A stretch of 64,000 nt of DNA from Fragilaria crotonensis (taxonomy: Eukaryota > Bacillariophyta > Fragilariophyceae > Fragilariales > Fragilariaceae): NCBI GenBank assembly GCA_022925895.1, contig JAKSYS010000218.1, forward strand, positions 1 to 64,000, read 5' to 3'. Shown here piece after piece: positions 15,852-38,017 of this stretch (position 1 is the stretch's first letter; every line of letters begins with the position of its first letter). The translations under genes and the position numbers were made by a program. The notes below the pieces were generated by a model. The model was not told the origin of the DNA. It ran no database searches and saw only the letters and a list, made by a program, of their open reading frames with translations.

Positions 15852-17732
15852 GTTATGTTCATTGAACAGTGTGCATCCCTGGCGGTAGGTGTTGGGTCGT
15901 CGGATCGCGGCTGTGCGATGGATGTACGACCATCCATCGGATGCATCCGGAGATCGTGTGTCGTGTGTCGGGTGTCAGGGGGTCAGGAATTGACCCAATG
16001 GAAATCAACTACAGGTACTGGTACGAGTATCGTTCCGGCACATCATACTGAATACTGAGTATGAAACAAAACCACCCCTTTTGAGTAAGGCACGCACTCA
16101 GGCGCTCGGATTGCTATCATACCGGTATGTATACCTGGTAGCGTAGGTACTCCAACTCTTTGCTACAGTGGTACCTTGTACTTGTACCAAGTTCGATGAC
16201 GGACAACAATCTTGTTGGTAATAGTAATGAACGTTTCAAAGGCTCATTTCGATAATTGGAATAGACATTTAATCGGCACGTAGTCGAATAATCCGTATCT
16301 GCTGAGCGATGACAGTGTTTGGTTTCAAGCTGCTGTCAACAAACGTCAAGACTTTTGAATCATCAATGTGGTCATTGTCTGTTTTGTTATCTTCTTCATT
16401 CCCTTGTGTGTCATGAGCTAAGTTGATGGCAGCAGCTTCACTGGTGCACCAGCCTTTGACATTGGTGAACTCTGCACTGACATGAAGGTATGACCGCACC
16501 ATCTTCAACACCACTGTTGCATGCAACAATGATGGCGGGAATTGGAAGCTGCTGGTCCACGGTAGACACCAACACTCCCGTAGTAGTGTTCAAAACCTGT
16601 TACTCCAAATGCTGCTGCTGCTACTGCAGGGCTTGCATCTTGTATCACTCACACATGTCAAACAATGCAGCAGCAGCCACTGAGGAATTGGGATTCTTTT
16701 TGTAACATCTGCTCATGTGCTGCTCACAAGCCAGCCTTGTTATTCTCTCTTTCAGCTGAATGATGCGAGCCGACACAAGAAACGAATCGGCAATGCATGA
16801 GACAGAGCATGGAATGGCAGGGATGATTTGGTGGTAGGCTTGACTGTACTCACCTGTTGGAAAAGCCTGGCAAGTCACAGACTCAGAAAGAGGAGGGAAG
16901 CAATTGATTGTACTGGATGCTTTTGCTTGTGGACTACAAAATGTGGTTCTGGTGGCACCACTCATTTGGGTGGCTGCTGGGTTCACTAAATGATAAACTT
17001 GAATGAATAAGACGCGTAATGGCAATGATGAGAATGAATTGGAGTCCCTCTACTATGTTTATGTTAGAACGATGGAAAACAATGAACAAGATATGACAGT
17101 GCTGGCAGCAGGTCTTGAAGCAAAGCAAGCAACATCATCATGTGAATCAATGTATGCCAGCAGAGATGGAGTTGCATGGAGCTTTACAAAACTCACAGAG
17201 TGGATTGTCACTTGAGTCATCAACAAAAAGCAATTATTGACTCGCTTCAATTCCAGTATGTGAAGCAATGGTGGGAGTGTTTATGCAATGCAGAGGAACA
17301 TCATCAATTAAAACATATATGTATGAATGAGATTTTTGACATTCTTAAGAACAACCGAGGAAAGCAGAAGAGTATTTATACTAAGGTGGTTTACAATTTT
17401 TTGCAATCCCCTCTTTAAAGATGCTCTAGCTAGCACAGAACCCTGGGTGCTACCAGTTTCTTTCTTAATAAGCACGTTGTGCTTTGGGGTTGATGTTGAA
17501 AACCCTCAACAGCTTGCTACAAGGGGCAACTGGTTTTGCACAGCGTAGCAAAGGAGCGCGTGTGAAAGATGCACGAATCGAGACTACACGACATGACAGC
17601 CTGTTTCCAGATTCCTGATACCTGATATCATACGAAAAAGTGTACACAATTTCCTACTTTAGTATTCGCGAACCACAGTCTGTCCGTTAACCGCCTCCCC
17701 GTAGCAACTGTAAGAAGTTGTCACGTAGCACC
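15852..17732. other. Intergenic region, possibly decayed repeat DNA
   Basis: Short frames only (longest 126 codons, 16,645-17,025 minus) with no recognisable domain. Positions 15,990-16,200 are GTAC-rich. From about 16,260 to 17,450 the composition changes to longer, coding-like but broken frames, as also near 41-42 kb, which suggests an old transposon I cannot name. The last ~200 bp may belong to the LINE 5' untranslated region. Confidence 0.35.
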
Positions 17733-20408
17733 ATGACCGAAGGAACGGGACCTCCCACACCTCTCGGAGATCATCCCAATGGCGTAGATATCTCTCACCC
17801 TATCTATGCTATTGACAGTGTCAACTGGCATGAAACCCCGAAACAATTCACCGAAAACTACATGAATACCACATCAATGACTCTCCGAACCACCAACGAC
17901 GCTGCTTACAAAATTGTCGGAAACGCACACACCTGGAATCACTATACCCTCTTCGGTTACCATGCATACGACCACTGCTTTCAGTTTGACACACAGTGGC
18001 AACGCATGATCCACAACCAGACAGATACTCTCAAGTTCATCTGGGAGAGCTACAGCTATTTACTTATCTGGGAGAGCTACAGCTATTTACTTTCCCGCGG
18101 TATGAAAATCCCGAAGAAATTGGAACGCTGGGCCATCGACATTGCGCGCCCTCACTTGCTAACAAACAAGCCATCCGCTCTCACTGTCGACACTACTGAT
18201 CCAAGAAGCGCCCGCCGTATCTACGACGAAGACGAGATAATGGAAGACACAGACAGCACCGACAAAAAACTACCTGCCAACGACAACTGGACACCAGTCC
18301 AAGGAAAAACTAAACCGCGCGCCATCACCAACGAAGAGGCCAGAGACACTTCACTACCCGTATCGCCCTCCAGAAATCCAACCCGCCCGAGTTCCGAGTC
18401 CGCTATCCAGATGACGCAAACCCCATCCATTGTTCACCCAAACGCCAGCCAACAAACCCAAGCTCCAAAGAAAGGACTCAGCTTTGTTAAAGTCAACGAC
18501 GGCACACTGAGAGTCACAGTGCGATGGAAACCTGACAACTACAACAGCATCTCCGAAGACGACGAACAATGGAATCTTGCAGCCACGGATACGATCCACT
18601 ACATTCTGGAAACGGTATCAGATGCCATCCTTTTTCCGTGGAAGAACGGATCTACCACACCACACATACCCTCCCTGGAACTTACACCAGACAATCTCCT
18701 ACAGTTCCTCGCACCTAAAATCACCAAGATCGAGTCCATCCAAATGTACGTCTTCAGCTTCCGTCTCTGCCTAAGCACGGGTGCAGGCAAATGGATTGGC
18801 GACAAACAAACAAAGAAAAACCTAGAACGTCACAACGTTGAAGTAAACATCTCAAACTCATCGTGCGACAGCGGAGAAACAATTTTCTTTAAGCACCCAA
18901 AATACACACAGAGGAAGTACTACCTAGCTCATCTCCGCAGACATCTACAAGCCACGACCCCCTTCTTCGACATTGGATACCACCGCAAGACCCCAACCGG
19001 ACACGACATACCACATCTCACCATTAAATGCGGAGAGAACCACGTCGGACCTCTGACGGAGATACTTTCCGCCTACCTCGACGGAACCAACACCGCGGTC
19101 TTTCTGGGCAGACTCTTACTCTCCAAAATGAGCACGGCCGAAGTCGACGCTCTTTTCCAAACTCATGCGGACTACATGACGCACACTCGAATTATCACAA
19201 TGGCGCCAACAATACAAAACGTTGATCTCATCCGAAATGAACACCGCGGTACCGACATCCTGGAAAGAAACACCAGGGAATGGGCGACGTCACTAAAAGA
19301 CACAGCAGGCAACAGTCTCAGGTGCGATGCCGACAACGGAGGAGACTCTCGACGGGCGCAACTTCTAGTACCAGTGGAACACATGGCACAAGTCCACAAC
19401 CTCTTCAGCGAATACAAAGAGTGCATCTCCACCTTCAATCAGCGGGAAGCAGACTTCACAAACCTTATCCAGGAAGCGAGCCCCCCACAAGCCATTTACG
19501 TTCCCACAGTGGCAGTTCACAACAATCTCGCCCTCATCCAACAAAGAAGCGCATCCTCCGTCTGGAAAAATGCTCCCGCATCCGTTCGCAGCCCAGCTGG
19601 GACACCATCCTCGGGATACAGACCTCCCACTCTACCAACCAACCTACTCCCACACCCACCATTACTCCCAAACGCTATCTCCCAACTGTCGCAATCACCG
19701 CCAGCTCGTTCTGCACAGGCTGAAGGAACACCAAAAAAGACACACAACAAAGCCATGGACCCGATTCAGGAGCTAGATCTGACAGACGAAACGGCAACAA
19801 CACACTCACAAATGACGAAATCGATGACGACCCAAAATAAATTCGCGGAGATCGAGGCAAGCATTAGAAGACACCAACAAGCAGTCACAAAACATCAGGA
19901 AGATCTCGCTCAAGTAAACGAACGAGCTATCATCACTCTCACACTAGTCGAAAAAACAGCGGCGGACGTCCAGCAACTAACTGAACATACCACAGCACAA
20001 CTAACGGCCCTTCGAAATGAAATACGGAACGAAGCCGCACTCCAAGCCCAAGCACAACAAGACGGATTTGCAAGGATGATGCAACTCATTCAACAACTCA
20101 CGGCCACCTCCACAGAAAGCACGGCCCTTGATACCTGGCAACCTGCCGCACGATCACCAGACAACTCATGTCCCTCAGACGACGAAAGCGACCATCAGGA
20201 CTATGACACAATGTCCACTCAAACAATTGAAACCGATAACCACTCCTCCATGGCAGCGTCGCCGGTCAAAAAGAAAAACAAACGCAAATCACGTGACCCC
20301 GCTCTTGACACCATCATCAAAAATCTCAACCCTCCCTCTCCCCCTTCCGATCAGGATAAAAGTGCCCAATACAACAATCCCCGCACACCTGACGACGGGG
20401 AAACCTAA
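17733..20408 (+). CDS. LINE ORF1 protein
   Basis: An intact 891-aa open frame from the ATG at 17733 (an earlier in-frame TTG is not a credible start). It has no zinc knuckle. A central globular part of about 300 residues contains T-V-R-W-K-P-D and V-F-S-F-R-L-C-L-S, and I do not recognise the fold. The C-terminus is coiled-coil-like (A-E-I-E-A-S-I-R-R-H-Q-Q-A and Q-Q-L-T-E-H-T-T-A-Q-L), which could trimerise the protein as in other LINE ORF1 products, and ends in a basic K-K-K-N-K-R-K-S patch. A 27-nt exact tandem duplication (18,039-18,092) repeats nine residues. The stop overlaps the ORF2 start as TAATG. Likely role: RNA binding in the LINE particle (inference from position). Confidence 0.75.
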   Translation: MTEGTGPPTPLGDHPNGVDISHPIYAIDSVNWHETPKQFTENYMNTTSMTLRTTNDAAYKIVGNAHTWNHYTLFGYHAYDHCFQFDTQWQRMIHNQTDTLKFIWESYSYLLIWESYSYLLSRGMKIPKKLERWAIDIARPHLLTNKPSALTVDTTDPRSARRIYDEDEIMEDTDSTDKKLPANDNWTPVQGKTKPRAITNEEARDTSLPVSPSRNPTRPSSESAIQMTQTPSIVHPNASQQTQAPKKGLSFVKVNDGTLRVTVRWKPDNYNSISEDDEQWNLAATDTIHYILETVSDAILFPWKNGSTTPHIPSLELTPDNLLQFLAPKITKIESIQMYVFSFRLCLSTGAGKWIGDKQTKKNLERHNVEVNISNSSCDSGETIFFKHPKYTQRKYYLAHLRRHLQATTPFFDIGYHRKTPTGHDIPHLTIKCGENHVGPLTEILSAYLDGTNTAVFLGRLLLSKMSTAEVDALFQTHADYMTHTRIITMAPTIQNVDLIRNEHRGTDILERNTREWATSLKDTAGNSLRCDADNGGDSRRAQLLVPVEHMAQVHNLFSEYKECISTFNQREADFTNLIQEASPPQAIYVPTVAVHNNLALIQQRSASSVWKNAPASVRSPAGTPSSGYRPPTLPTNLLPHPPLLPNAISQLSQSPPARSAQAEGTPKKTHNKAMDPIQELDLTDETATTHSQMTKSMTTQNKFAEIEASIRRHQQAVTKHQEDLAQVNERAIITLTLVEKTAADVQQLTEHTTAQLTALRNEIRNEAALQAQAQQDGFARMMQLIQQLTATSTESTALDTWQPAARSPDNSCPSDDESDHQDYDTMSTQTIETDNHSSMAASPVKKKNKRKSRDPALDTIIKNLNPPSPPSDQDKSAQYNNPRTPDDGET
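18039..18092 (+). repeat. 27-bp exact tandem duplication inside LINE ORF1
   Basis: Two identical 27-nt units (18,039-18,065 and 18,066-18,092), each encoding I-W-E-S-Y-S-Y-L-L. The frame is kept. This looks like a recent replication or template-switch slip and may mark this copy. Confidence 0.95.
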
Positions 20409-20410
20409 TG
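20406..20410 (+). promoter_or_regulatory. TAATG stop-start overlap between LINE ORF1 and ORF2
   Basis: The ORF1 stop TAA (20,406-20,408) overlaps the ORF2 start ATG (20,408-20,410). The same UAAUG arrangement is known to drive coupled termination-reinitiation in the SART1 LINE of silkworm. Whether it works here is inference. Confidence 0.7.
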
Positions 20411-23400
20411 TCCGTATCAATCAATAAGATAATAGACGTCCTCACACCGCCTATTCCCGCCACCATATCCACAAACCACACACAGACTCCAATAACTCCC
20501 GCCAAAACTCCAGCACTGATTCAACATCACAGCACACACGCAACACTCCACACTTTCCGCCCTGGTCGTACCACGCTCCGTCAACCGCTAAACATAGATC
20601 TGACCTCATCGTACGGAGACTCTATCCACGACCGGGAACCATCAAGCATCCGCGTGTTCTTTCAAAACGTGAAGGGCCTCACATACTCCCACACAGGTGA
20701 AGACTACGCCTACTACCTTTCATGCACGGCATCAATGGGAGCAGACATCATCGGCATGGCTGAAACCAACTCCGCCTGGTCGCACCACCATCTCCGCAAC
20801 GCTTTACACCAACAAGCTAGAAAACAATACGAACAACACAAATTCTCCCTCAGCTCACCATCACAGGACATCGACCCGGTACCAGAAAAAGAAACATTTC
20901 AAGCTGGCGGCACCGTAACAATGGTGACAAATTCTCTAGTTCCCATGGCATTCGGAGAACCGCATCACGACCCCACCGGACTCGGCCGCTGGAGCTCGCT
21001 CAGTTTCGGAGGAAAAGATGAACGATTCCTCACCATTTTCACCGCCTATAGAGTGTGCAAAGGAAGCATCCAATCATCACCAATTGGCAGTGCCTTTAGC
21101 CGCGAATACGAACACCACCGAGGCAAAGGGATTAAAAACCCACAACCGCGCAAAATCCTGCTCACAGATCTCACTCAAGCGATTCAACATGAGCAAACAA
21201 AAGGTCACGCCATCCTTGTCATGATGGACTCCAACGGATGCCTAGAAGATGACACTGATCTCCAACTCTTTGCCTCAGAATGTGAACTCAATGACCTCCA
21301 CGCCAAAACACCGTCTCCATCAACGTTCATAGGCTCCACACATCGACGCATCGACCACATCTTCGGCTGTCTCCAGGTCCAACAGTCGGTCACATCAGCA
21401 GGGTCTCTGTCCTATATAGAGGGACCGCAATCTGATCACAGAGGTCTATTCGTCGATCTTGACCCCCAACATCTCCTCCATCGGACAACAGAACCACTGA
21501 ATATCTCGCCGGCACATGCACGTTCACTAAAAACAGGCAACCCAGAGGCAGTCGCCACATACCACGACGCGATGCTGGACTACTACGCTGATCACAACAT
21601 GATTCAACGGCTGGACAATTTGGTAAGAGACAAAGATAAAATGTCCATACCCACACTTCGTAAGCACCTTGAAAAGTGGGACTCCGATCAAGGCCGGGCA
21701 ATGAAACACGCAGAAGCTCTCCTCAACAGACCCAAGAAACCGTATGCATGGTCACCAAAACTAAGAAACGACGGATTGCTATACCGATACTGGAACCTCC
21801 GCCTCCGGGAAAAAACACACTCAGAAGATTACCATCATATCCTCCGCAGAATAGAAACACAAACACAACAACACAACCCAGACTTTATTCTCCCTTTCCT
21901 CGACATCCCACTCCCCATCTCAGAGATCCACAATCAACTCAAAAGTGCAAAACAGCATCTCAAAACCAGCCAATGCAATTCACCTGAACTGCGATACCGC
22001 TGCTACACAGATCTACTTGCCATATACGCCAACGACACAGATCCCTCCACACAAAAAGCATCTGAACGCCGCTCCAAAATTGTCACCAATACCATCAAGT
22101 CAGAACAGTGCAGATCGATGCATGCCAACATAAGAGCGACAGTAAAACCAAGCACAATGGAAAGTCTTAGCAGACTTCTGGTTCCCCACTGCCAAAATGA
22201 TCCCAGCCTTCCTCACAACTTCCAGGAGCTCCTCGCAACCACACCTACAGAAGACATACAATGGGCATCCATACTCGACAAAACATCCATCGAAAGCAAC
22301 CTTCTAAAATTCAACCGCGAACATTTTCGAGCTGCGGCGGCATCCCCCCGCGGCTAAGGAGAAATCCACGATAAACTTACTTTTACAAGTCTCTCGCCGG
22401 AAGCTGCTTCTCTACTTGACGGAACCATACCGGCAGAGTGGCACGGAAATGACGAACTCCTGAGAGAATTCTTGACGTCCTTCAGTATTCCTGACCGCAT
22501 AAAAGACACAACCCAAATCACCACAGCAATCTCTCAAGAAGACGTTCAAAAAGGATTCTCCAAATGGAAGGAACGCACTTCAACATCTCCATCTAGCCGA
22601 CACCTGGGCCACTACAAAGCTCTCATCCAAAACGAAACACTTCTCTCCAGTCTCACCAAGTTCCTCCAACTCATAGTCGACAAAGGCCTCGTGCTCCACA
22701 GGTGGTGCAATGCCGTTAACATCATGATAGAAAAGGACCAAGGACATCCAAAAATAACCAGACTCCGTATCATTCACCTCTTCGAAGCTGACTTCAACTT
22801 CTTCCTCAAACTCCAATGGGGTTCACGACTAGTACGACGAGCTGATGAAAAGTCTTTACTCAACGATGGCCAACATGGATCGGTCCCAAGACGCACTGCG
22901 ATGGATCCAATCATGCTCACCGAACTCACCACGGACCTCTGCAGAACGCTCAAACATAATTTGGCAAGATTTGACAATGACCCCTCTGCCTGCTATGACC
23001 GCATCATAGTCGCCCTCGGAATGCTTGCAGCCCGCCGCTGTGGAATGCCAACAAACGCCGTCAGCACCCACGCCTCAGCCCTCCAACACATGAAGTACAA
23101 GGTTAAAACGATACACGGCATCTCAGAAGAAACTTACCACGGGACACAGGATTCTCCCCTCTTTGGCACCGGACAAGGCAGCGGCGCCTCCCCGGCAGTA
23201 TGGTTGACTCTCGTAGTCACGCTTATGAACACGTTGGACAGAGTGATAAAACACAGAATGACATTTGAATCGCCAGACTCCCTCAGCACACACACCCGCC
23301 TAGTGGACGCCTTCGTCGACGACACCTCCCTAGGCTTTACGGACACAGGTTCACTCTCTCTCGAGGATCTCACCGCCACACTCTCTACCATCGCCCAAAC

Positions 23401-24467
23401 TTGGGAGAATCTTCTCTTCTACTCTGGCGGATCACTCAATCTCCAAAAATGCTCATGGTACGCAATGTACTGGGCCTGGAAATATGGCAGACCATATCTT
23501 GCGCCTATCAATCCCACCGATCACGACCTGCACCTCTCCACGCAAGGTAACAATGATACAAGCACTACTATCCGCCGCTGGCCGCTCAACAAAGCAAATC
23601 GCATCCTAGGGGTACCTCTCACCGGACGGAGACTTCACAACTCAACTCCAGATCCTCAAGAAGAAAGCCGACGCATTCGCCTACACACTCAGGTCCCCCC
23701 GCCTGACTCCACAAGATATCATCACGTTCCATAGAACCACCTACGGCCCATCCATGAGAAACGTGCTACCTGCACTCTCAGTTGACGAAGAGGAACTATC
23801 CATGGTCCAATCCAAAATTCTGTCGGCCATACTCAACAAACTCGGACACAAACTTCCAACAGAAATCCGCCACGGACCCATTGAGATGGGAGGCCTCGCT
23901 CTGATAGACCTTCGCACCGAAGTGGGAATCTCCCAACTAAAATACATGAGAGACGCCATCTATTCTGACAGTGAAGCTGGGAAACTCATCATAATGAGCC
24001 TGAAGTATAGCCAGATCGAAGCTGGCATCGCAGAACCACTCCTCGAACACCCGCAGATACACCTACAGTATCTCACTCCGACATGGCTACTATCCATAAG
24101 ACAGTATCTGTACCAACATAACCTCACGGTGTCCATCACGGACGTTCTCAAAGCACCTCTCAAAGGCCGCATTGATCAATGCATCATGTCATCTCCCAGC
24201 CTTGCAAACTACACGAAGTCCCAGCAGATTGATTTAAATCTCGTGCGACTGTATCTTCAAATCACCACACTTTCGGATATGACGGAGTCAGATGGACTGC
24301 ACGCGTGCAAATACAACATCAAAAGCCTTCGTAGACCCGACCAATCCATTAACAGCATCACATGGACTCAACAGGAACAAGTAACACAGTCGCAGACAAA
24401 GCTGTGGACCCGTTTCATATCGTCCGCTTACCTTCGATATGGAAATAAATGGCGTCAGACACCACTC
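20408..24467 (+). pseudogene. LINE ORF2, 5' part: endonuclease and reverse transcriptase
   Basis: Starts at the ATG at 20408, inside the TAATG overlap with ORF1. The endonuclease/exonuclease/phosphatase domain shows F-F-Q-N-V-K-G (Asn), M-A-E-T-N (Glu), M-M-D-S-N-G (Asp/Asn) and G-P-Q-S-D-H-R-G (catalytic Asp-His). The RT shows R-I-I-H-L-F-E-A-D, F-D-N-D-P-S-A-C-Y-D (motif A), G-T-G-Q-G-S-G-A-S-P (motif B) and F-V-D-D (motif C). An in-frame TAA at 22,355-22,357 breaks it; the same frame then continues with G-E-I-H-D-K-L-T-F-T. A frame change follows at about 23,620-23,640. The coding continues to 24,467, where the LTR element is inserted. Confidence 0.85.
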
Positions 24468-24851
24468 TGCAGTACACCGCACGTGCCCTTAGCGTAGTGC
24501 GATACAGTATACTATATTACTAGTATCCAGTACTACAATACAATGGCCATGTATAGTACTTGGATATACCGGTAGACTAGTAATACCATAGTACAGTGCA
24601 ACAATAGAACACTGATCCTGTACAACAGTACAACCGTACAACAGTAGAATGAGAACTGTCTGACATCTCTTGGAGACTCACTGAGTCTCCTAGATGAATG
24701 AAAGAGAACAGTCCAATCCCACCAAGGATGGGACTGCTCTCTTGTTTTAAAAACTAGTCTCATAACTTTTAATAAGGTGCAACTATTAATCCTTTAAAAC
24801 TAGCTACAAATTAGCCTCCAAAATAAAACTGATTACTTCGCGCGTAGGGCA
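24468..24851 (+). repeat. 5' LTR of the nested element
   Basis: 384 bp, TG...CA ends, preceded by the target duplication CACTC. By eye it is identical to the 3' LTR. Confidence 0.93.
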
Positions 24852-27800
24852 CAGTGAATTCACTCCCAGTAGTCAGTACATCACCATGACGAACAAAAAT
24901 AAAGGTAAGCGCAAAGCGTCTGAAAATTCGTCTGCGGAACATGTCGCATTCCGTCAGTCGAACCTCGCGTTGAATCCGCCGTCGATTTATTTTGATAGGC
25001 CCAAGAAATCGACAGAGAAATCTGACGATGAGGGCAACTATAAAAAAATCGACGTCCCGATTGAAGCCGGAAATGCGAACTCCAAAAATATCGAAAAGAG
25101 AATTCGTTTGTTTGGAGACTACGACACCTCGCCAGAAGCGTGGGTGAAGTGGCGCATAGAGCTCGAGGAGGTCATTCGTGACTATCCGCTCGAGTCTGGC
25201 GAACAAAAAAGCGTCTATGGCTCTTGCACTACTTAAGGGCAGTGCAAGAGACAAATTCCAGCAAACGTGGCGTAGACTCGATACGGAGAACGTAGCGGGT
25301 CCCGCACGACAGAGGAAGACTCCAAACGAGATTTTCCAGCTGGTAATGACGGAAGTTGGTAAGTCTTACTTCCCAATCTTGCATGCGTACCAGAAGCAGG
25401 TGGTGTACATGCAGCATTACCTACGTCTTGGAAGTCATACGGTTCGTAACTTTGCTACGCGTTTACGCGAGCTAAATAATTACTTACCGTATTTTCCACG
25501 GGAAGAAGGTAAGGCTGAACCGTCTAAATTGTCTGATGACGACTTGATTCAAATTCTCAACCAGGCGAAGCCTGAAGAATGGCAAGCGGTCATTCTTGGT
25601 GCGAACATCGAGCTTTATAAGTTCGATTTTCAAGGCACTGTTGATTATTTTGAGAAACTTGAACTCAGACAGGCACTTGAGGCCAAACGTCGTAAGGTGG
25701 ACAAATCCGATAACCCTGAGGGCACGAAAAGAGCAATTGGAACGGTAAGTCCGCTGACAAAATGGCAACGGCCAAAACACAGTCGTCTAAGTATAAGAAG
25801 TGTGCGCATTGCGGTCGTCGAATCATACTACGAAAGACTGTTGGTTTAACCCTGAGAACAAGGGAAACAGAAACCTGGTAAGAAAAATGTCGGTTTTACC
25901 GACCGAAATGTCTTGATGACGCAGGAGCAGCTTAACGCTATCCTTGAGCGTCTTCCACGCAACCAAGTCTGGCAAGCGTAAGGTCCGCGACTTTACACCC
26001 GAGAATTCGGATGCAGAAATCGTGGAAATGTTCAGTCCCAAGACAACCATTAGCACAGTAGAGACTAAAGAAGATAGTGACGAAAGTTCCATCTACTTTG
26101 GTTCATTTTCTAGTGAGATATTGCCATCCAAAGATGGCCATGGCAGTAAGAGACAAAAACAAAAACACAAAACCACCGAAGTCGTGGGCGAAGTGATGGG
26201 AACAGGCAAACCCGGCATTGTTCGCATTTTGCTAGACACTGGAGCATCTGCGACAATTATATAAGGATGCGATACGGGGCTTAACTGGACCGGTATTCAA
26301 AACATCACATACACGATGGCACACTATGGGTGGTCAATTCGTAACGAAACTGCAACGAAATTAAATTCAAATTACCCGAGTTTAGTGCGTCAAAGATAGT
26401 ACAATGGGTGTGTCACGAGGACACACATACGTTGCTGCAAGAATGCACAGTATGACATGATCATCGGTGCAGATTTACTATCAGAATTGGGTATCGAAAT
26501 TAATTTCAATACACAACGGATAGTATGGGAAGGTGTAGAAATTCCCATGAAAGAAAAACACGTAATATCCGATCTACAGAATGCTACAGCTATCTACTAC
26601 CACAGTATCGAACCTACGGTACTCAAGGAAGCAGAAGCGAGGCAGAAACGTATACTGGATGCAGACTATAGTGCGTTAGATCTGGATGACTACGCACACA
26701 TGGATACGCACCTAAGTAGCGATCAACAAAAACAACTCGTACGTTCGCTACGAAAGTATCCGAAGTTGTTTAGTGGAGGACTGGGCGTACTCAATGTACC
26801 GCCTGTACATCTCGAACTACGGCCCAAGTAAGGATGAGAAGCCGTATCACGCTCGTCCGTTCCCTGTACCAAAATGCTACGAGGAAACAACGAAGAAAGA
26901 AATTCAACGTTTATGTGACATAGGAGTATTAACGAAGTGCAATGACTCCGAGTGGGCGGCACCAACGTTCATACAGCCTAAAAGACTGGTGACGTTCGAG
27001 TCCTAACGGACTTTCGTGTACTTAATAGGTACATAAAACGTAAACCATACCCGTTACCCAAGATTGCAGACCTTCTTCAGAAACTTGAAGGGTTTAATTG
27101 GGCAACGGCTCTGGACTTAAGTATGGGCTACTACCATATTGTCCTGGATAAAGAATCCAGCTATCTATGTACAATGATTGTACCCTGGGGCAAATATCGC
27201 TACTGTCGCCTACCTATGGGTTTGAATGGCAGTCCTGACATCTTTCAGGCCATAATTAATGACATTATGGGCGATTTGCCTAATGTGCGTGCGTACTTAG
27301 ATGACATACTGATTACAACAGCAGGTTCCTACGAGGACCATCTTCAGCATGTTGAACTCGTGTTGCAACGCCTAACTGATGTTGGCTTTGCCGTTAACCT
27401 ACGTAAATCCTCGTTCGCTGTGACCGAGCTTGATTACTTAGGATATTGGATTACTCGTCGCGGTATCCAACCTCAACCTAAGAAAGTGGAAGCGATTATG
27501 CGGCTGACACCACCAACTACCAAACGGCAGTTAAGACGTTTCTTAGGTATGATCAATTACTACCGTGACATGTGGCGACGTAGAAGTCACATACTAGCAC
27601 CGCTTACGGCGCTGTGTTCTGCCAAAGCTAAATTTATTTGGCACGATAAAGAACAGAAAGCATTTGAAGACATTAAGGCCATAATAAGTCGAGAGACATT
27701 ACTGGCTTATCCTGACTTCTCAAAAGACTTTCACATTTATACGGACTCCAGTGATTATCAACTGGGAGCAGTCATAATGCAAAATGACCGTCCGTTAGCT

Positions 27801-29323
27801 TTCTACAGTAGGAAACTTAACAGCGCTCAAAAACGTTACACGACTGGTGAACAAGAGCTGTTATCCATAGTAGAAACACTTAAGGAATTCAAAAATATAC
27901 TATTAGGTCAAAAAACTGATAGTACATACCGATCATAAGAATCTCCTATATCAGAAAATGTCCACTGATCGTATAATACGATGGAGACTCCTGATAGAAG
28001 AGTTTGGACCTACCTTTCTACATATAAAAGGAGAAAAGAACGTCATTGCTGACGCCTTGTCAAGATTAGATGCGAACTTCAATGAGAAGTTACCAACAGA
28101 GCCTACAAATGATACGATGGCTTACATCTTCATGACAAAAACAGACGTTAAAGAAACTGACTTTCCGTTAAGTCCTATGCTAATCGCTAAATACCAACGG
28201 TTAGATAATGAGCTTAAACGAAGAAGTACGAAATCAAAAAGTCAGAACTTCAATACCAAAACAATTGAAGGAGTTGAGGTCATTACGTACCAAGGAAAAA
28301 TATATATATATTCCTATTCAACTTCAACAACGCGTAGTGGCTTGGTATCATGAGTATCTAGCACACCCAGGCGAATCACGCACTGAAGCAACGATACGAC
28401 AAACATGTACGTGGCCAAAATTACGTAGTCACGTTGAGACATTCTGTAAGACGTGTCGTACGTGTCAACTATTTAAGAAACAAAGGAAGAAGTATGGACA
28501 CTTACCTCCTAAGGAAGCTGAAGAACTTCCCTGGTCTCGTGTAAACGTAGACTTGATTGGACCATACGTTGTACGTACTCCAACGTCTACGTATACACTT
28601 CGTGCGTTGACTATGATTGATCCCGTAACAGGATGGTTCGAAGTCATAGCAATACCAGATAAGAACGCACATACTGTTATGGAAGCGTTTAATAATACGT
28701 GGTTGATGAGATATCCACCCTACATATAGGGTATGATAACGGTTCCGAATTCAAAGCACAATTCAAACAAATGTGCGAGAATTATGGTATGAAAGAAAAA
28801 CCGTCATCCAGTTACAACCCACAATCAAACGGTATTGTAGAACGAGTACATCAAGTACTGGGTAATGCACTTCGGACATTCGAACTCGAACAAAAAGAAC
28901 TCGATGCGAATGACCCTTGGGGACCGTTCCTAAGTGCAGCTGCGTGGGCAATACGTAGTACAGTACATACTACATTAGATGCTACACCCGGACAGTTAGT
29001 ATTTGGACGCGACATGTTGTTGCCCATCCAATTAAAGACGGATTGGGCTAGGATAAGACAACGTAAGCAAGATACTATTAACGCCAATAATAAAAAGGAA
29101 AATGCTAAACGCATTGAACACGAGTACCGTGTTGGCGAAAAAGTCCTACTAGAAAAACCAGGACTGATCTCCAAATTATCCGCCCCACGTACGGGACCTT
29201 ATCGGATTACTGAAACCTATGCTAATGGTACAGTACGCATTCAACGTGGCATTGTCAATGAACGTGTCAACATACGTCGACTAACACCATATAAAGAACG
29301 TACCGCCCAATTAGGGAAGCGAG

Positions 29324-29707
29324 TGCAGTACACCGCACGTGCCCTTAGCGTAGTGCGATACAGTATACTATATTACTAGTATCCAGTACTACAATACAAT
29401 GGCCATGTATAGTACTTGGATATACCGGTAGACTAGTAATACCATAGTACAGTGCAACAATAGAACACTGATCCTGTACAACAGTACAACCGTACAACAG
29501 TAGAATGAGAACTGTCTGACATCTCTTGGAGACTCACTGAGTCTCCTAGATGAATGAAAGAGAACAGTCCAATCCCACCAAGGATGGGACTGCTCTCTTG
29601 TTTTAAAAACTAGTCTCATAACTTTTAATAAGGTGCAACTATTAATCCTTTAAAACTAGCTACAAATTAGCCTCCAAAATAAAACTGATTACTTCGCGCG
29701 TAGGGCA
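29324..29707 (+). repeat. 3' LTR of the nested element
   Basis: 384 bp, identical by eye to 24,468-24,851, preceded by a purine-rich stretch (AGGGAAGCGAG) and followed by CACTC. Confidence 0.93.
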
Positions 29708-31580
29708 CACTCTCTCATGATAACACAGAAGATGAACAACCTGCCAGAGTCCACACCACTACCAAACAATCCAAGCCTACCAAAGTCTCTCCCACATGGT
29801 ACAACGCCTCAAGCGGCTACGAACAAAGTGGCAACGGATCTTATCATCTGGAGATCCTTCAGATCCAGACGACGACTCATCATCGCCTCAGACGGAAGTT
29901 TACTCCCTACAGCAGGCACTTTCGGCTGGAAAGTAACTACCGATAAACACAGCACGCTCTTCCAAGGCTCTGGTCCAATTGACGGCCCCATCGACATCGG
30001 CAGCTCCACACGCAGCGAACTGGGTGGCTTCACCGCACCTCTTCTTCTCATCACAATGATAGCAAGGAATTGGGGACTCCGTCACCGATGCAAATTCCGA
30101 TGGATAGTGGACAGTAAAATTGCCATCAACAGGGTGATCTTCACAGTACGAAAGGACTCCAGACCAACAAAACAACCGGACAATGTAGATTATCTCTCAG
30201 TCATTCGAGCACTTTATCGCGAACTCAGAAGGCCGATAAAAATCCAGTGGATAAAAAGCCACCAAGATGACAAGACGTCATATGACAAACTCTCCTCGGA
30301 CGCAAAATTAAACATCGATGTCGACAAACTTGCAACACACCAACACACTCGCCCAGCACCACGCTCTCAACCAAAGACGACGACTGCACATATTCCTGCC
30401 ACCAAAATCTCAATTACGATAAACAAAATTCGATACGCAAGCAATATCGACGCCAATCTTCGGTTCCAAATAAACGGCGGATACCTTCGCCAATATCTCC
30501 AAAAGAAGCATGAATGGTCTGATAGGACGTGGGACACAATCAATATTCCGGCTCTCGGACGTCATCTCAAAACGCTACCACTACATCATCACACCGCGCA
30601 TCAAATTCATACGACAAACAACCACTCTGGAATTCATCAACTGCGACAAAAATCAAAGACCCAGCTATTGCCTTATGCGTGCTGCGTGAAGACACCGGAA
30701 GACCAACAACATTTTCTCATGCAAACCCTGCTCGAGCAGAGGCACTCCGACAACTGACTAAAACGCTGACTGACAAAGACGCCCATCCGTACGGCATCAG
30801 CCTGGCCGCGTGCATAGAATCACATCTCAACGACCCGACAACAGAGGAAACCCGCCACTTGACACATTCGAATCTCGATACAAAGACGCCATAAACGACG
30901 CCATATACCACCAAAAACAAATTGGATGGCAGCATCTCATTCGCGGTTTTGCACTCTCTTGGCTTCGCCTCGCCTCCCTCAAACCTATCGACGATGGAAA
31001 ACCGGATACGCCACGAGGCCAACACCGCATCCATACATCTCTCTCGGCAAATTCACAAGTACGTCCGCGCCATCTGGCTCGGCCGGAATGACACACTCCA
31101 TAAACACACAGATGCAGCCAACGCTATCAAATATTCAGCAGAATCCACAGAAATTCGACACTACTTCTCTGATCCACTACTCCTTCCGCTGAGGACCGCC
31201 ACTATGTTTCCAACAGCAACCTCGAAAAACTTCTTCATAGCAGCCCATCCGTCCGCAGAAGATGGCTCCGACGCGTGAGAACTGCGCGCAACAATATGCT
31301 GAAGAATGGAAATCACAGCTCACCATCAGGACATTCTTCCCTAAGGCGACAACAACGGATCCAGAATCAACCCAACGACCCACCACAACGCCGACGACCT
31401 GAACCAAGTACACCAACATCGCCCCTATACCCAAGCATATCGAGCGGACACCGGACGACCACCGGACACAGCCACAGCGACACAGGCAAACACGAACTAG
31501 AACTACACAACAGCGCATGACCGCGTTCTTCCAGGACGACCCCGATACCCACAAACCAACCGGAAATCCTTCGCACATCT
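29708..31580 (+). pseudogene. LINE ORF2, 3' part: RNase H, Cys/His motif and PIP-like C-terminus
   Basis: Continuation of the LINE after the nested element. RNase H is clear at about 29,870-30,330: I-A-S-D-G-S (Asp), S-T-R-S-E-L (Glu), W-I-V-D-S-K (Asp) and W-I-K-S-H-Q-D-D (His/Asp). Downstream, C-C-V-K-T-P-E-D-Q-Q-H-F-L resembles the Cys/His motif near the end of many LINE ORF2 proteins. The frame changes near 30.61, 30.68, 30.85, 30.97 and 31.2 kb. The last frame holds Q-L-T-I-R-T-F-F (31,316-31,339), a stop at 31,400, then in the same frame Q-Q-R-M-T-A-F-F (31,508-31,531) before the final stop. Both fit the PCNA-interacting consensus Q-x-x-[ILM]-x-x-F-F. Confidence 0.8.
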
Positions 31581-31600
31581 GAAATTAGGGAAAGTGCTGG

Positions 31601-32609
31601 GGTTGGGTACCTGTACGATCTTGCCAAAAGTTTGTACTATAGGTAAACCTATATAATTTGTTTCAGCTCTCTCCTATATCACGAAAAAGTGTATGCATAA
31701 TATATGGCACAAAAGAAACACGTCGACGATCAAAGTTACAAGTGGCAAAGGAAATCTTTGACTTTTCTGACTGCTCATATAGCCTCATAAAACCGGTTTT
31801 GAGCGAATTCGGTAAAATGCGGGTTTCCACTTTTACTACTGGCGGTACATGTACCGTCGTACCAGTAGTAGGGTCTCCATTTCTCCATCGAAGGTTCGGT
31901 CTTCGGTCCCCGTTCCCTTTCCACGACACCACGAAACCACAACCCACGGAAAACAATCAGCATAGATTAGAGATTACTACAGCATACGTATGTATAAATC
32001 ATACTGCAGCATACAAAAACTCCGAGATACAATTAGGTCTTGAACGGAAGAAACATGCGTACAGGACAGTGGCATGGAAATCAGTGCACGTTAGAGTATG
32101 TAACAACTCTCCACTTATACGCACGAATTAGAGTGGTTCGGAGAAACTCAAGACTGCATTTGGAACGGAACTTGCGGGGTTTTCGAAAGTCTTCGTTCTT
32201 CGAATCAATGCGAGAAATGAATTCAGGGTACCGTTACGAATTTCAGACAAAATGATATATACAATTCCAAGCACTACTATATTTACCTATTGCAACCACG
32301 TATGTGATTTGTGGGATACTACGACATACGACACGTCAAGCGCTGAGTTCAACCAGGACCTGTGACGCGCAGCAGTCCGAAAAGTCACAACATCGACCAA
32401 AGGTCCGTCAAGACGTGTTCCCGCGTCTGTCTTACGAATCATTCTGAACAGTCGGAAATCTCGTTCGTCCACCCGCATTCCTTCTTGAGAGATCACAAAG
32501 AATAGCAAAATAAAGAGTCTTCGCTGCTCCGCTACCACAGCCCGATTTCAAATATTCAACCGCATCACATTAATCTGATCAATCAGTACAATTGCAACAA
32601 GACTCTCGT
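31601..32609. other. Intergenic region after the LINE
   Basis: Open frames such as 31,658-32,131 (+) and 32,287-32,538 (-) show no domain or coding signature I trust. I find no LINE tail or target duplication here. Nothing else is supported. Confidence 0.35.
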
Positions 32610-33252: not shown

Positions 33253-34189
33253 TTTCTGCTCCGCATTTTTGGATGGAACTACATTAATCTAAGAGCTTTG
33301 AAATTCGAAACAGGATGTGTATCCTTCAACCGCAGGCTTAGTAAACAAGTGTCGTGCTTTGGCGACTTAGATTGCACTTCATTCTGCACGCGCTTGCTGC
33401 AAGGAACAGAGCCAATCCTCTCTCACTAGTTGACGCCTCTACTCTCCACCGTACAAGAACTCGAGAACGCCTAGCACGATCAACTCGTGTGTTATTATTT
33501 CATATTGGAGCTTTTATTGACAGTATTTGTCATGTTATGTCTCATTGATAAGGCCATCCGCGAGATGCGAGGAGCATGGTACCATACTTTTGTAACGATT
33601 ACCTGGCGAAGCACGCCTGCCATCCGCATTCATAGACACACGGCAAATAGTGTGTTTTGTACGGTGTGGACGCCACTCCCTGGATGACACACAACACATG
33701 ACACACTTTCACCATTAACGTCAGGATGAGACTTTCAAACGAGAATTCCCGTCATGACACACTTTCACCATTTACGTCAGGATGAGACTTTCAAACGAGA
33801 ATTCCCATGATAACAGCCGGCATGTGCACATCATACGCGTTCGCGTATGGTGTCTCGCATCTCGCATCTGCCGCATTGGAATGTGTATCAGGACTGTATT
33901 ACCAGGTACCAGGTATAAGTACTGGAACACACTTGAACGGTGCTACTGGTGGTAGCACCGCAAAGACAATACTTGTACTTGGAGTCTATTCCCGTTGCTA
34001 AACTCTGGCCGACGACCGGTTTACGCCGGCTTCACCAATCATTTCCGCGTACTTGTGTTTTCGTATTTTCGTCGGATGTCGTACGTTGTGCACACGGAAC
34101 TCCAGCTAGCCAACCCGGTGTCTGCGATTCCACGCTTTCACCATTGATCGAAACATCAGCATCATGCCGGTGTTATCGTTCGGACCAGA
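33253..34189. other. Intergenic region upstream of rimM
   Basis: No gene seen. It contains a tandem duplication at 33,697-33,806 and a short GTAC-rich stretch near 33,900-33,980. Confidence 0.4.
33697..33806. repeat. Tandem duplication, 54-bp units
   Basis: Units at 33,697-33,750 and 33,753-33,806 begin CATGACACACTTTCACCATT and differ at one base; two bases separate them. Confidence 0.9.
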
Positions 34190-35219: not shown

Positions 35220-36080
35220 TGAGCCCTTATTGTAGACTGTACGACGTATACTAACTACCCTGCTCATTCATTCGACTAGCAGTAGCAACTGTAACTGGCT
35301 TCACAATTCTGGAGTACTGGAATACTACAGTACTACTCCGAGTTGAATGTTTTGCAAGATTAAAACAGTGCCTCAATTGGGGTCTCAGGTCTCACGCGTC
35401 GTGGAAGCAGTCGTTGTTCGTCGCAATCTCGTCGCACTGTATACGTGCATATATGCGTTTCTCAGTACAAGTTTAAGTACTCCGTACACAGTGTGCAATG
35501 CAATCCCATCTAAAAGTTTCAAGCAACCCACGTCTGCGTTGTCCCGCGCAGTCGTGCGCCATGTTTTCGCGAGTAGGCGCACCACCAGCCTAACCCGTCG
35601 TCATCATTACCAGTCGGAGTAGGTCTCCTACATGTATCTTTATATGAACAAAAATCTTCATTCAATTATTCGTGGCGTGGATATCCAAAGTTAGTATTCA
35701 ACGGTCCATGTCTCCTCCACCGGCCCTCCCCCACTTGATTTCAAGCGCTGCCTGGTAGGTCGTACATGTATATCATACATGAATGCTGCGAGTACAAGTA
35801 CCAGGTCCCCATACAACAACACACATCATCACCAAAGCCATCCTTGCTGCTTGCAGTTACACCCGTTGTTACACAGTCCATACTCTAGCAGATAGATTGC
35901 AGCGACAATCCTCCTTGTTCGTCTTTGCCCTTCGTGAACGAGCTAGCGGCAATTCACAGCGGAAGAAAAGAAGAAGTGCCGACTGAAGACACAGCGAGTT
36001 TCAGGTTTCCGTCGTTGTTGCCATATATTTCCCTCTTTGGCCGACAGCGTTCCAGCTCTACTCTGCAGGAAACGGACCTC
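35220..36080. other. Intergenic region
   Basis: No gene seen. A GTAC-rich cluster with paired GAGTACTGG and AGTACTACTCCGAG words lies at 35,310-35,345, between RimM and the stalked membrane protein. The 5' part of the open frame leading into 36,081 (from 35,925) lacks an ATG and is probably untranslated leader. Confidence 0.4.
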
Positions 36081-38017
36081 ATGATTCATAAACGCGCCTT
36101 TGCCAACACCATGTGCCTTCGTCCACTTAGAGCTATGGTTGTGGCAGTGGCGATCTGTGTGCTGCTACTTCCAGGAGGCTATGCACAGAGTAACACGAGA
36201 AACCCTTCAGCCAACCCTGCATCACAGCAGAGTCCAATCACAGATCAGCCAGTGGGTCCCCCAATCGCCCCTGTTCCTGACACCCCAGAACCAACGGTGC
36301 AACCAATTCCGATCTCCCCCCTTTCCATACCTCCATTTGTCATTCCAACCCTAACATCCCAAGCCCCCGTCACAGTACCGCCATCTGCGGCTCCCGTATC
36401 AGCTATGCCGGTTTCCGAGCCTCCTTTTTCGGCTTCTCCAGTAACTCCTGATCCAACAAGTGGTGCCCCGGTCTCTCCTGAACCGACAAGTGGTGCCCCG
36501 GTCTCTCCTGAACCGACGAGTGGTGCCCCGGTCACTCCAGAACCCACAAGTGGAGCGCCAGTGACGGAACCTCCGACCACTGCTGCGCCTACCACAGAAC
36601 CACCCACCACAGAACCTCCCACCACAGAACTCCCTACCACTGGCTCTCCGACCATTGCGCCGTCAGTGTTGCCTGTGACGGATCAGCCAACGAAAAAGCC
36701 AACCACCGAAAAGCCAACCACCGAAAAGCCAACCGGGTCTCGGACCGACGAGCCCTCCAACTCTGAGCCAACAAAGTCTCCCACCCCTGCTCCGTCCAGG
36801 GCTCCAAGACCAACAACACCTGCTGAACCGCTGAACGGTGTGACTATGGTTTTGGTAGGCATCACAGCGTTGAATGCCGACTCCATTGCGGCATGGGAGA
36901 AAACAACAACTGAGTACATTGAGTCGTTCTACGACGATGTTTCCAACGCAAGGGACGTGGGTGCTAGCAACGTGGTCACTACCATTTCATTGACGAATCA
37001 GGCTACTGTGACCAGGCGACTCCTTTGGGGACGTTCCTTGCAATCCAGCGGCGGCCAGGTGCAGCTAACGTACAATCAAGAGCTGTCGTTTACTGCGCAA
37101 AATGACAAGGTGACGTCGGCTGATGTGGCGGCTGGGCCGTTTGATACGAGTAGTCGACGGACCGAATATGTCGTCACGTTGAGGAATTCGGGTGATGAGG
37201 GCTTGTCGAAAGTAGTTAGCGCAGAAGAAGTGGTCGTTCCAGAAACGAAGAGCACAAGCAGCAGTGGACTTTCAACTGGCGCAATAGCTGGGATTGCTGT
37301 GGGAGGCGCCATCGTTCTCATGCTCCTCATGTGGGCCATTTCCAAGTGGGTGCTATATCGATCGAATAAGCTCAGTGGGTACATTGGTGATGTTGAAGAT
37401 GCGCCACCGACATCTATCAAGACTGGACCAGATGATGTGAGCACCATGGATGGTTATTCCAAAGTTCGGTCCTCACGCGAGTCATTGGCAGGATACGGAG
37501 ACCAAAGGTAAGCGACCGCGGGCCAACGAATCGACGTTTAGTATTGGTAAACCTGTTTCTAACTTTCTCCCTCTCTAGCGTTGCGACTGTTGACTATGAT
37601 TACTCCAAGGCATATGGAGGAGGAGCCGACCATTCCGTGTCATCTGCGGGAGGAACTTTTGGTTCAAACCCCAACGCATTCGGCGCCAACCAAGGTGTTT
37701 TGGCGGCGGGAGCTTATCCCGACGATGGTTCTTACGAAGCGCCAGATGCTAATGTGCGCGAGGCTCATTGACATTTATGCTCCGGCTGGAAAACTGGGTG
37801 TGGTGATTGATACGCCCGATGACGGTGCTCCTGTTGTTCATGCCATCAAGGACAGCTCTGTCATCGCGGACAAACTCAAGTAGGCGATAAGCTTGTAGCT
37901 GTCGATGATGAGGATGTGAGAACGATGACAGCGATCAAGGTTTCAAAACTGATCAGTAGGAAGAGTGGAAACCCCACAAGGAAACTGAGTGTTATTCGTT
38001 CAACGGTGGTCGAGTAA
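36081..38017 (+). CDS. PT-stalk type I membrane protein with cytosolic PDZ domain (frame-interrupted)
   Basis: The ATG at 36081 precedes a signal peptide (A-M-V-V-A-V-A-I-C-V-L-L-L-P-G-G-Y-A-Q). Next is a Pro/Thr stalk with near-identical P-T-S-G-A-P-V-[ST]-P-E units (nt 36,460-36,550), T-E-P-P-T-T and T-E-K-P-T repeats; an ectodomain beginning N-G-V-T-M-V-L-V-G-I; a span at about residues 400-425; and a tail. A 71-nt intron (37,508-37,578) is followed by a second exon ending in a PDZ-like domain: D-I-Y-A-P-A-G-K-L-G-V-V-I-D, then V-G-D-K-L-V-A-V-D-D. Frame changes lie near 37,762 (one extra or two lost bases) and at 37,880 (A-A-G-T-A-G; one G lost). Corrected length 621 codons. Likely a surface receptor or adhesion protein with a scaffold-binding tail (inference). 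Confidence 0.72.
36460..36560 (+). repeat. 30-bp coding tandem repeat in the PT stalk
   Basis: About three and a half nearly identical 30-bp units encoding P-T-S-G-A-P-V-S-P-E, the third with T in place of S. Variation in unit number would change stalk length. Confidence 0.85.
37508..37578 (+). other. Intron of the stalked PDZ gene
   Basis: 71 nt, donor CAAAG|GTAAGC, acceptor CTCTCTAG|CGTTGCG. It splits an AG|C serine codon and keeps frame into V-A-T-V-D-Y-D-Y-S-K. Confidence 0.8.

Follow-up and report, generated by a model that had tools for sequence, protein, structure and literature searches.

The window, as we call the whole stretch of 64,000 nucleotides analysed here, carries a LINE with two successive open reading frames, and near the end of the second lie two matches to the consensus of the PCNA-interacting (PIP) box. 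We take the genome to be that of a diatom: it has 19 matches to the silicon-transporter family, which marks diatoms and few other organisms, and 18 of them exceed the cut-off. The features of this LINE, and of a foreign LTR retrotransposon that interrupts it, are listed in Table 1; the first frame was labelled ORF1 because of its place. In the window copy (17718-20410) and in the relative L037 the stop codon of ORF1 and the start codon of ORF2 overlap in the sequence TAATG, while the relatives L044 and L053 have ATGA at the ORF1/ORF2 junction, an overlap that suggests coupled re-initiation.

Table 1. Features of the window LINE and of the element inserted in it.
Feature	Position	Strand	Basis
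LINE overall	17718 to ~31660	+	ORF1, then ORF2 from 20408; contig C135 (window: its bases 1-64000) of the 62.1-Mb genome
ORF1, 896 aa, open	17718..20408	+	ORF list; sequence 20380-20430
ORF2 N-terminal part, APE-type endonuclease-like region and beyond	20408..22354	+	42.6% identity to L037 ORF2 residues 68-667
ORF2 RT core (FVDD)	22358..23731	+	62.6% identity to L037 ORF2 residues 669-1090
ORF2 RT-to-RNase H region, cut by LTR element	23610..24494	+	49% identity to L037 ORF2 residues 1088-1371
LTR retrotransposon inserted in the LINE, foreign to it	24468..29623	+	Two identical 300-nt direct repeats; LINE parts on both sides
ORF2 RNase H domain and beyond	29660..30754	+	48% identity to L037 ORF2 residues 1425-1723
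RRRWL anchor, end of C-terminal domain	31254..31268	+	Sequence; comparison with relatives; one frame off site 1
Predicted PIP box site 1, QLTIRTFF, at the family's C-terminal PIP place	31316..31339	+	Sequence; relatives' tails
Thr/Pro-rich tail extension between the PIP boxes	31340..31507	+	TGA 31400-31402; open in relatives
Predicted PIP box site 2, QQRMTAFF	31508..31531	+	Sequence; 12 of 13 compared rows
Stop codon of the two-motif frame	31580..31582	+	Sequence; similar end in L002-L004
LINE 3' untranslated end, limit approximate	31583..31660	+	Similarity to L002-L004 until about CCTATATAATTTGTTT, divergence after

Architecture of the window LINE

ORF2 is broken in the window by a stop codon (22355-22357), by frameshifts and by the LTR element. 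Its pieces are collinear, at about 43 to 63% identity, with the ORF2 of L037 (contig C108; 959-6895, minus strand), which is open over 1978 aa. At the N-terminus the alignment shows conserved blocks of the APE-endonuclease-like kind, which may represent an APE-type endonuclease; Pfam gave no match there, either for the window part at E≤0.01 or for the whole ORF of L037 at E≤0.05.

The two 300-nt repeats of the inserted element (24468-24767 and 29324-29623; the ends of the element are approximate) are identical, and a recent insertion is therefore suggested. A search for direct repeats of at least 40 nt between 16000 and 34000 returned, besides this pair, only a tandem pair of 56 nt, which lies outside the LINE; thus no long terminal repeats of the LINE's own were found in that interval. 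The tandem pair is a 56-nt unit duplicated at 33697-33808 with 96% identity; further downstream, an ORF of 528 aa (35925-37511) contains a Pro/Thr-rich repeat and, judged by eye, a likely membrane span. The sense strand of the LINE is strongly A/C-rich, with a GC skew of -0.24 to -0.31 and an AT skew of +0.2 to +0.32 over 18000-24000 and 30000-32000.

Class of the element

The classification of the element as a LINE with a reverse transcriptase in a long ORF2 is based on matches to the Pfam family RVT_1 within its group: eight of 11 aligned RT cores matched at E≤10, the best with an E value of 4.8e-7, and the window RT core itself gave E 0.0041 with 17.3 bits, under the curated 29.6. The RNase H region of the window likewise matched RNase_H (Pfam) at E 0.0016 with 19 bits, under the curated 25.8, and an AlphaFold2 model covering the last 752 aa of the relative L008 contains an RNase HI fold, with a best E value of 5.4e-4. 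For the RT core, AlphaFold2 gave a poor model (mean pLDDT 45.7), and PDB sequence searches with ORF2 and three profiles gave no match. At E≤0.05, a Pfam search with five whole ORFs, including the open 1978-aa ORF2 of L037, assigned no family to any of them; since the RT cores do resemble RVT_1, annotation based on whole proteins could overlook this group of LINEs.

The group is not L1, because it encodes RNase H and because no strict PIP box was seen between its endonuclease and its reverse transcriptase: the 121 distinct ORFs compared, of which many are only partial, have five motifs outside the tail, none of them in that interval.

Two motifs in one frame

The sequence-only reading had placed QLTIRTFF at 31316-31339 and QQRMTAFF at 31508-31531, in one frame and 169 nt apart, and direct reading of the window bore this out. 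On the forward strand CAGCTCACCATCAGGACATTCTTC encodes the former (site 1) and CAACAGCGCATGACCGCGTTCTTC the latter (site 2), site 2 beginning 169 nt past the end of site 1 in the same frame, which amounts to 64 residues from start to start; both match the consensus Q-x-x-[ILM]-x-x-[FY]-[FY]. A TGA (31400-31402) lies between them, and the last stop of the frame is the TGA at 31580-31582. The intervening stop, also reported in that reading, is real in the window copy but is lacking in the nearest relatives, L002 and L003 (contigs C208 and C74), where the frame is open from 5' of the RRRWL anchor through the last stop. These two relatives are near-identical and have similar flanks, perhaps being two haplotypes. 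Their site 1 is one residue short (QLIRTFF versus QLTIRTFF in the window), their site 2 is unchanged, and together with L004 they end in NPSHI or NPPRI followed by a stop, similar to the end of the window frame. The window copy has a 1-nt deletion immediately 5' of site 1, and for this reason its anchor is out of frame with site 1.

When the surrounding 760 nt were simulated 3000 times with an order-1 Markov model, PIP motifs averaged 0.014 per region, all six frames counted, and no simulated region held a same-frame pair. A looser pattern at the DNA level matched four times in the window as a whole, against 1.49 expected, and four or more matches arose in six of 100 shuffles; as this enrichment is only mild, the motif by itself is weak evidence in the window. 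The copy in the window is dead and is unable to settle the question alone, while its genome can, and the weight of the case for the motif comes from the relatives.

The tail motif across relatives in the genome

A protein search of the same genome, with the last 280 aa of the nearest relative's ORF2 as query, returned at least 143 match rows. Three of these belong to the window copy and five are further pieces of copies already listed, leaving 135 places. The ends were examined at 94 of them, that is, 90 places plus four from among the lowest-scoring matches. From the 90 we left out, choosing after viewing, seven whose frame was lost or cut (L027, L034, L036, L041, L076, L092 and L093) and three that had no anchor in the 100-aa excerpt yet had site 2 (L005, L006 and L014). 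The 80 remaining in-frame anchored tails were thinned at 95% identity to 56 non-redundant ones.

All 56 have a Gln 16-17 residues past the RRRWL-type anchor; the full consensus is present at this site 1 in 45 and anywhere in the tail in 51. A strict PIP at site 2 was seen in nine tails, at both sites in three and at neither in five. When the frame-lost copies are not excluded, there are 68 unique tails, of which 55 have a strict site 1, 61 a strict motif somewhere and seven none. The distance from the start of the last strict PIP to the C-terminus has a median of 13 residues (range 11 to 76), typical endings being QSLLTSFFPRQSP, QTLLTNFFRRSSG and QTTIQSFFPTIQ. The five tails without a strict motif differ among themselves: both sites are decayed in L020, position 4 is occupied by V in L090, L039 ends in FL, the spacing in L071 is shifted by one, and L067 looks frameshifted. 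As for the four low-scoring matches, two near-copies carry QTLITSFF and the other two have Ser in place of the last aromatic residue (QTLITSFS and QTLITGYS). Outside the tail the ORF2 background amounts to five motifs, two of them in near-identical copies, over the 42,199 residues of the 121 distinct pieces.

It had been proposed that related copies be inspected for the motif at their C-termini and for a coding frame; the interpretation as PIP boxes withstood this check in this genome, where the motif has a fixed C-terminal place, lies in open frames of up to 1978 aa, and shows selection at its consensus positions (see below). Scans for the RT core gave 67 pattern stretches in viral contigs and 54 in contigs of prokaryote genomes, with no confirmed relative in either collection; as both collections are viral or prokaryotic, these scans say little on other diatoms.

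Constraint and structural setting of the tail

Ratios of nonsynonymous to synonymous differences (pN/pS) were calculated from 36 nearest-neighbour pairs. Identity within these pairs ranges from 47 to 98%, so that synonymous change is in part saturated and the ratios have meaning only relative to one another. The most constrained codons were those of PIP positions 1, 4, 7 and 8, with a pN/pS of 0.12 and a pS of 0.65, compared with 0.37 at positions 2, 3, 5 and 6, 0.31 in the linker, and 0.22 in the 40 residues preceding the linker. At site 2, the pattern QQRM-T-[ASE]-[FY]-[FY] is present in 12 of 13 compared rows (the window included, and several of them near-copies), the codons showing silent differences with the residues kept; in L020 this site is decayed. 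These comparisons of coding sequence point to selection on the PIP consensus residues.

In the AlphaFold2 model of L008 (one model, mean pLDDT 71.5) the last helix extends to residue 684, and pLDDT falls below 50 from residue 687; the Gln of site 1 is residue 688, so that the tag starts where the fold ends. The model thus places the motif in what is predicted to be an accessible, unstructured segment.

Doubled tails

The subfamily to which the window copy belongs comprises L005, L008 to L011, L020, L028, L033 and near-copies. Its members have site 1 at the family position and site 2, usually QQRM-T-x-[FY]-[FY], 35 to 65 residues further on, at 27-29 residues before the C-terminus in the relatives measured. 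The tail after the anchor is 79 to 108 residues long, versus a median of 29 in the others, and is thus some 50-80 residues longer than in most of the group. Site 1 is mostly worn in this subfamily, its final aromatic residue being lost in most members (QQLVTRYM, QRQVTQYM, QRSITQYI, QQRITQFM, QQVMTRYL), the window copy and L010 having kept its full consensus. The earlier description of the motif as C-terminal and doubled therefore fits the window's subfamily in both respects; as a general trait the doubling does not hold, since most examined relatives have one PIP.

L037, sister to the window's subfamily (95/89), is doubled as well (QQTVTQYF, then QMSILRYF), and so are L083 and L094, which lie far from it. 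Doubled tails are thus found in two clades of a tree that was built from 57 of 81 rows and 77 columns and has long branches; it needs two changes, with gain and loss not separable.

What the tail may bind

The genome has one PCNA place, on contig C150, matched by both Pfam halves. Two XPG_I matches share the best score, and one of them gave a host protein that we label FEN1-like on this basis; at the edge of the sequence piece analysed it carries QARMDSFF, which resembles the QQRMTAFF of site 2; the host therefore appears to use the same peptide pattern. We consider it very probable that the motifs of the LINE are PIP boxes and that the C-terminal tail of ORF2 which holds them is flexible, with mostly one box per tail and a second one in the longer tail of the window's subfamily; they would serve to dock ORF2p on PCNA. 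Binding of PCNA by the tail, and every later step, are inferred.

Peptides of the PIP type can be recognised by various partners, between which the consensus alone does not discriminate. The tail might thus mainly bind something other than PCNA, such as the 9-1-1 clamp or a factor of translesion synthesis or mismatch repair; we hold this to be unlikely, given that the columns of site 1 (Q; I/L/M; F/Y; F/Y) are those of a canonical PIP and that the FEN1-like host protein has the same pattern. A smaller chance still is given to the motif being a structural part of the ORF2 C-terminal domain, serving in packing or dimerisation, with a coincidental likeness to PIP boxes. The motif does follow the conserved domain directly and at a fixed spacing, but the confidence of the AlphaFold2 model drops at the motif start, a second copy of the motif is found 35-65 residues on in two clades, and the PIP positions are constrained where the intervening ones are not.

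That the similarity is kept at the level of RNA or DNA, for instance as a 3' signal for the reverse transcriptase, or that it arose by chance in A/C-rich sequence, might be suspected from the place of the motifs near the 3' end, from the base composition of the strand, and from the mild enrichment of the looser pattern in the window alone; we nevertheless regard it as next to negligible. Chance was ruled out by the simulations, with no same-frame pair among 3000, and by the family counts, with so few motifs in ORF2 elsewhere, while an RNA-level constraint is spoken against by the high synonymous divergence in the very codons of positions 1, 4, 7 and 8.

Returning to PCNA docking, the tail of ORF2p would bind PCNA loaded at a replication fork or at a repair patch, and this contact would bring the endonuclease and the reverse transcriptase to suitable target DNA. 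It could also hold the reverse transcriptase, or the host polymerase and ligase, on site during or after target-primed reverse transcription. Of the roles that PCNA might play, we favour recruitment to forks or repair patches. A wider picture, which we offer tentatively and rate a little below an even chance, is that in this diverse group of diatom LINEs with their own RNase H a canonical C-terminal contact with PCNA is a standing part of ORF2p; that the tail with two PIP boxes evolved twice, perhaps for engaging two PCNA subunits or for a hand-over from an old site to a new one; and that insertion would take place at forks or repair patches by way of this contact.

Comparison with known systems

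FEN1 and similar replication proteins have a canonical PIP near the C-terminus, as does the LINE tail, although FEN1 is a host nuclease and the diatom ORF2p a retrotransposon protein. The R2 element uses target-primed reverse transcription. It is a non-LTR element like the diatom LINE, but it has no PIP box and a role of PCNA is not known there, according to PMC10830420. PIP boxes in mobile-element proteins are already known, from pogo, Tigger and L1. The transposases of Pogo/Tigger and others, as described in PMC5371812, are likewise mobile-element proteins with a clamp-binding motif; these elements are DNA transposons or bacterial insertion sequences, whose proteins are unrelated to the ORF2p of the diatom LINE. 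We found no report in the open-access literature (subscription papers and preprints being outside our scope) of a LINE bearing RNase H in which a PIP at the C-terminus is shared across the group and at times doubled, and passages of PMC7017206 likewise have nothing on this LINE group.

The closest comparison is with human L1, whose ORF2p also combines an endonuclease and a reverse transcriptase and for which a link to PCNA has been reported. A PIP helix at residues 404-419 of L1 ORF2p was reported as needed for retrotransposition (PMC10830420, PMC6068448), and to this extent the analogy drawn in the sequence-only reading holds; as a settled contact it does not, since PMC7617806 proposes PCNA at another, unusual site in the wrist domain of L1 ORF2p. 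The contact site in L1 itself is in dispute (PMC7617806).

PCNA has been linked in L1 to the recruitment of RNase H2 (a speculation in the discussion of PMC6068448, on the ground that L1 lacks RNase H, and a model in PMC10830420) and to target choice (PMC10830416, PMC7617806), and has been tied to processivity or repair (PMC5371812). The diatom LINE should not need PCNA chiefly for bringing in RNase H2, because the element encodes its own RNase H; for this reason, and because an RNase H-bearing LTR element did not need RNase H2 (PMC6068448), this role seems the least likely one here. If the tail binds PCNA, the RNase H2 explanation therefore cannot be general; under the same condition, target choice and processivity could naturally be compared, within one genome, between relatives that have a single motif and those that have two.

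The two systems also differ. The PIP of L1 is internal, in a helix between the endonuclease and the reverse transcriptase, whereas the motif of the diatom LINE lies in the C-terminal tail and is sometimes doubled; and L1 has no RNase H domain (PMC6068448), whereas the diatom LINE encodes one. In the one genome covered here, an RNase H-bearing LINE group thus keeps a clean, canonical PIP motif at a fixed place.
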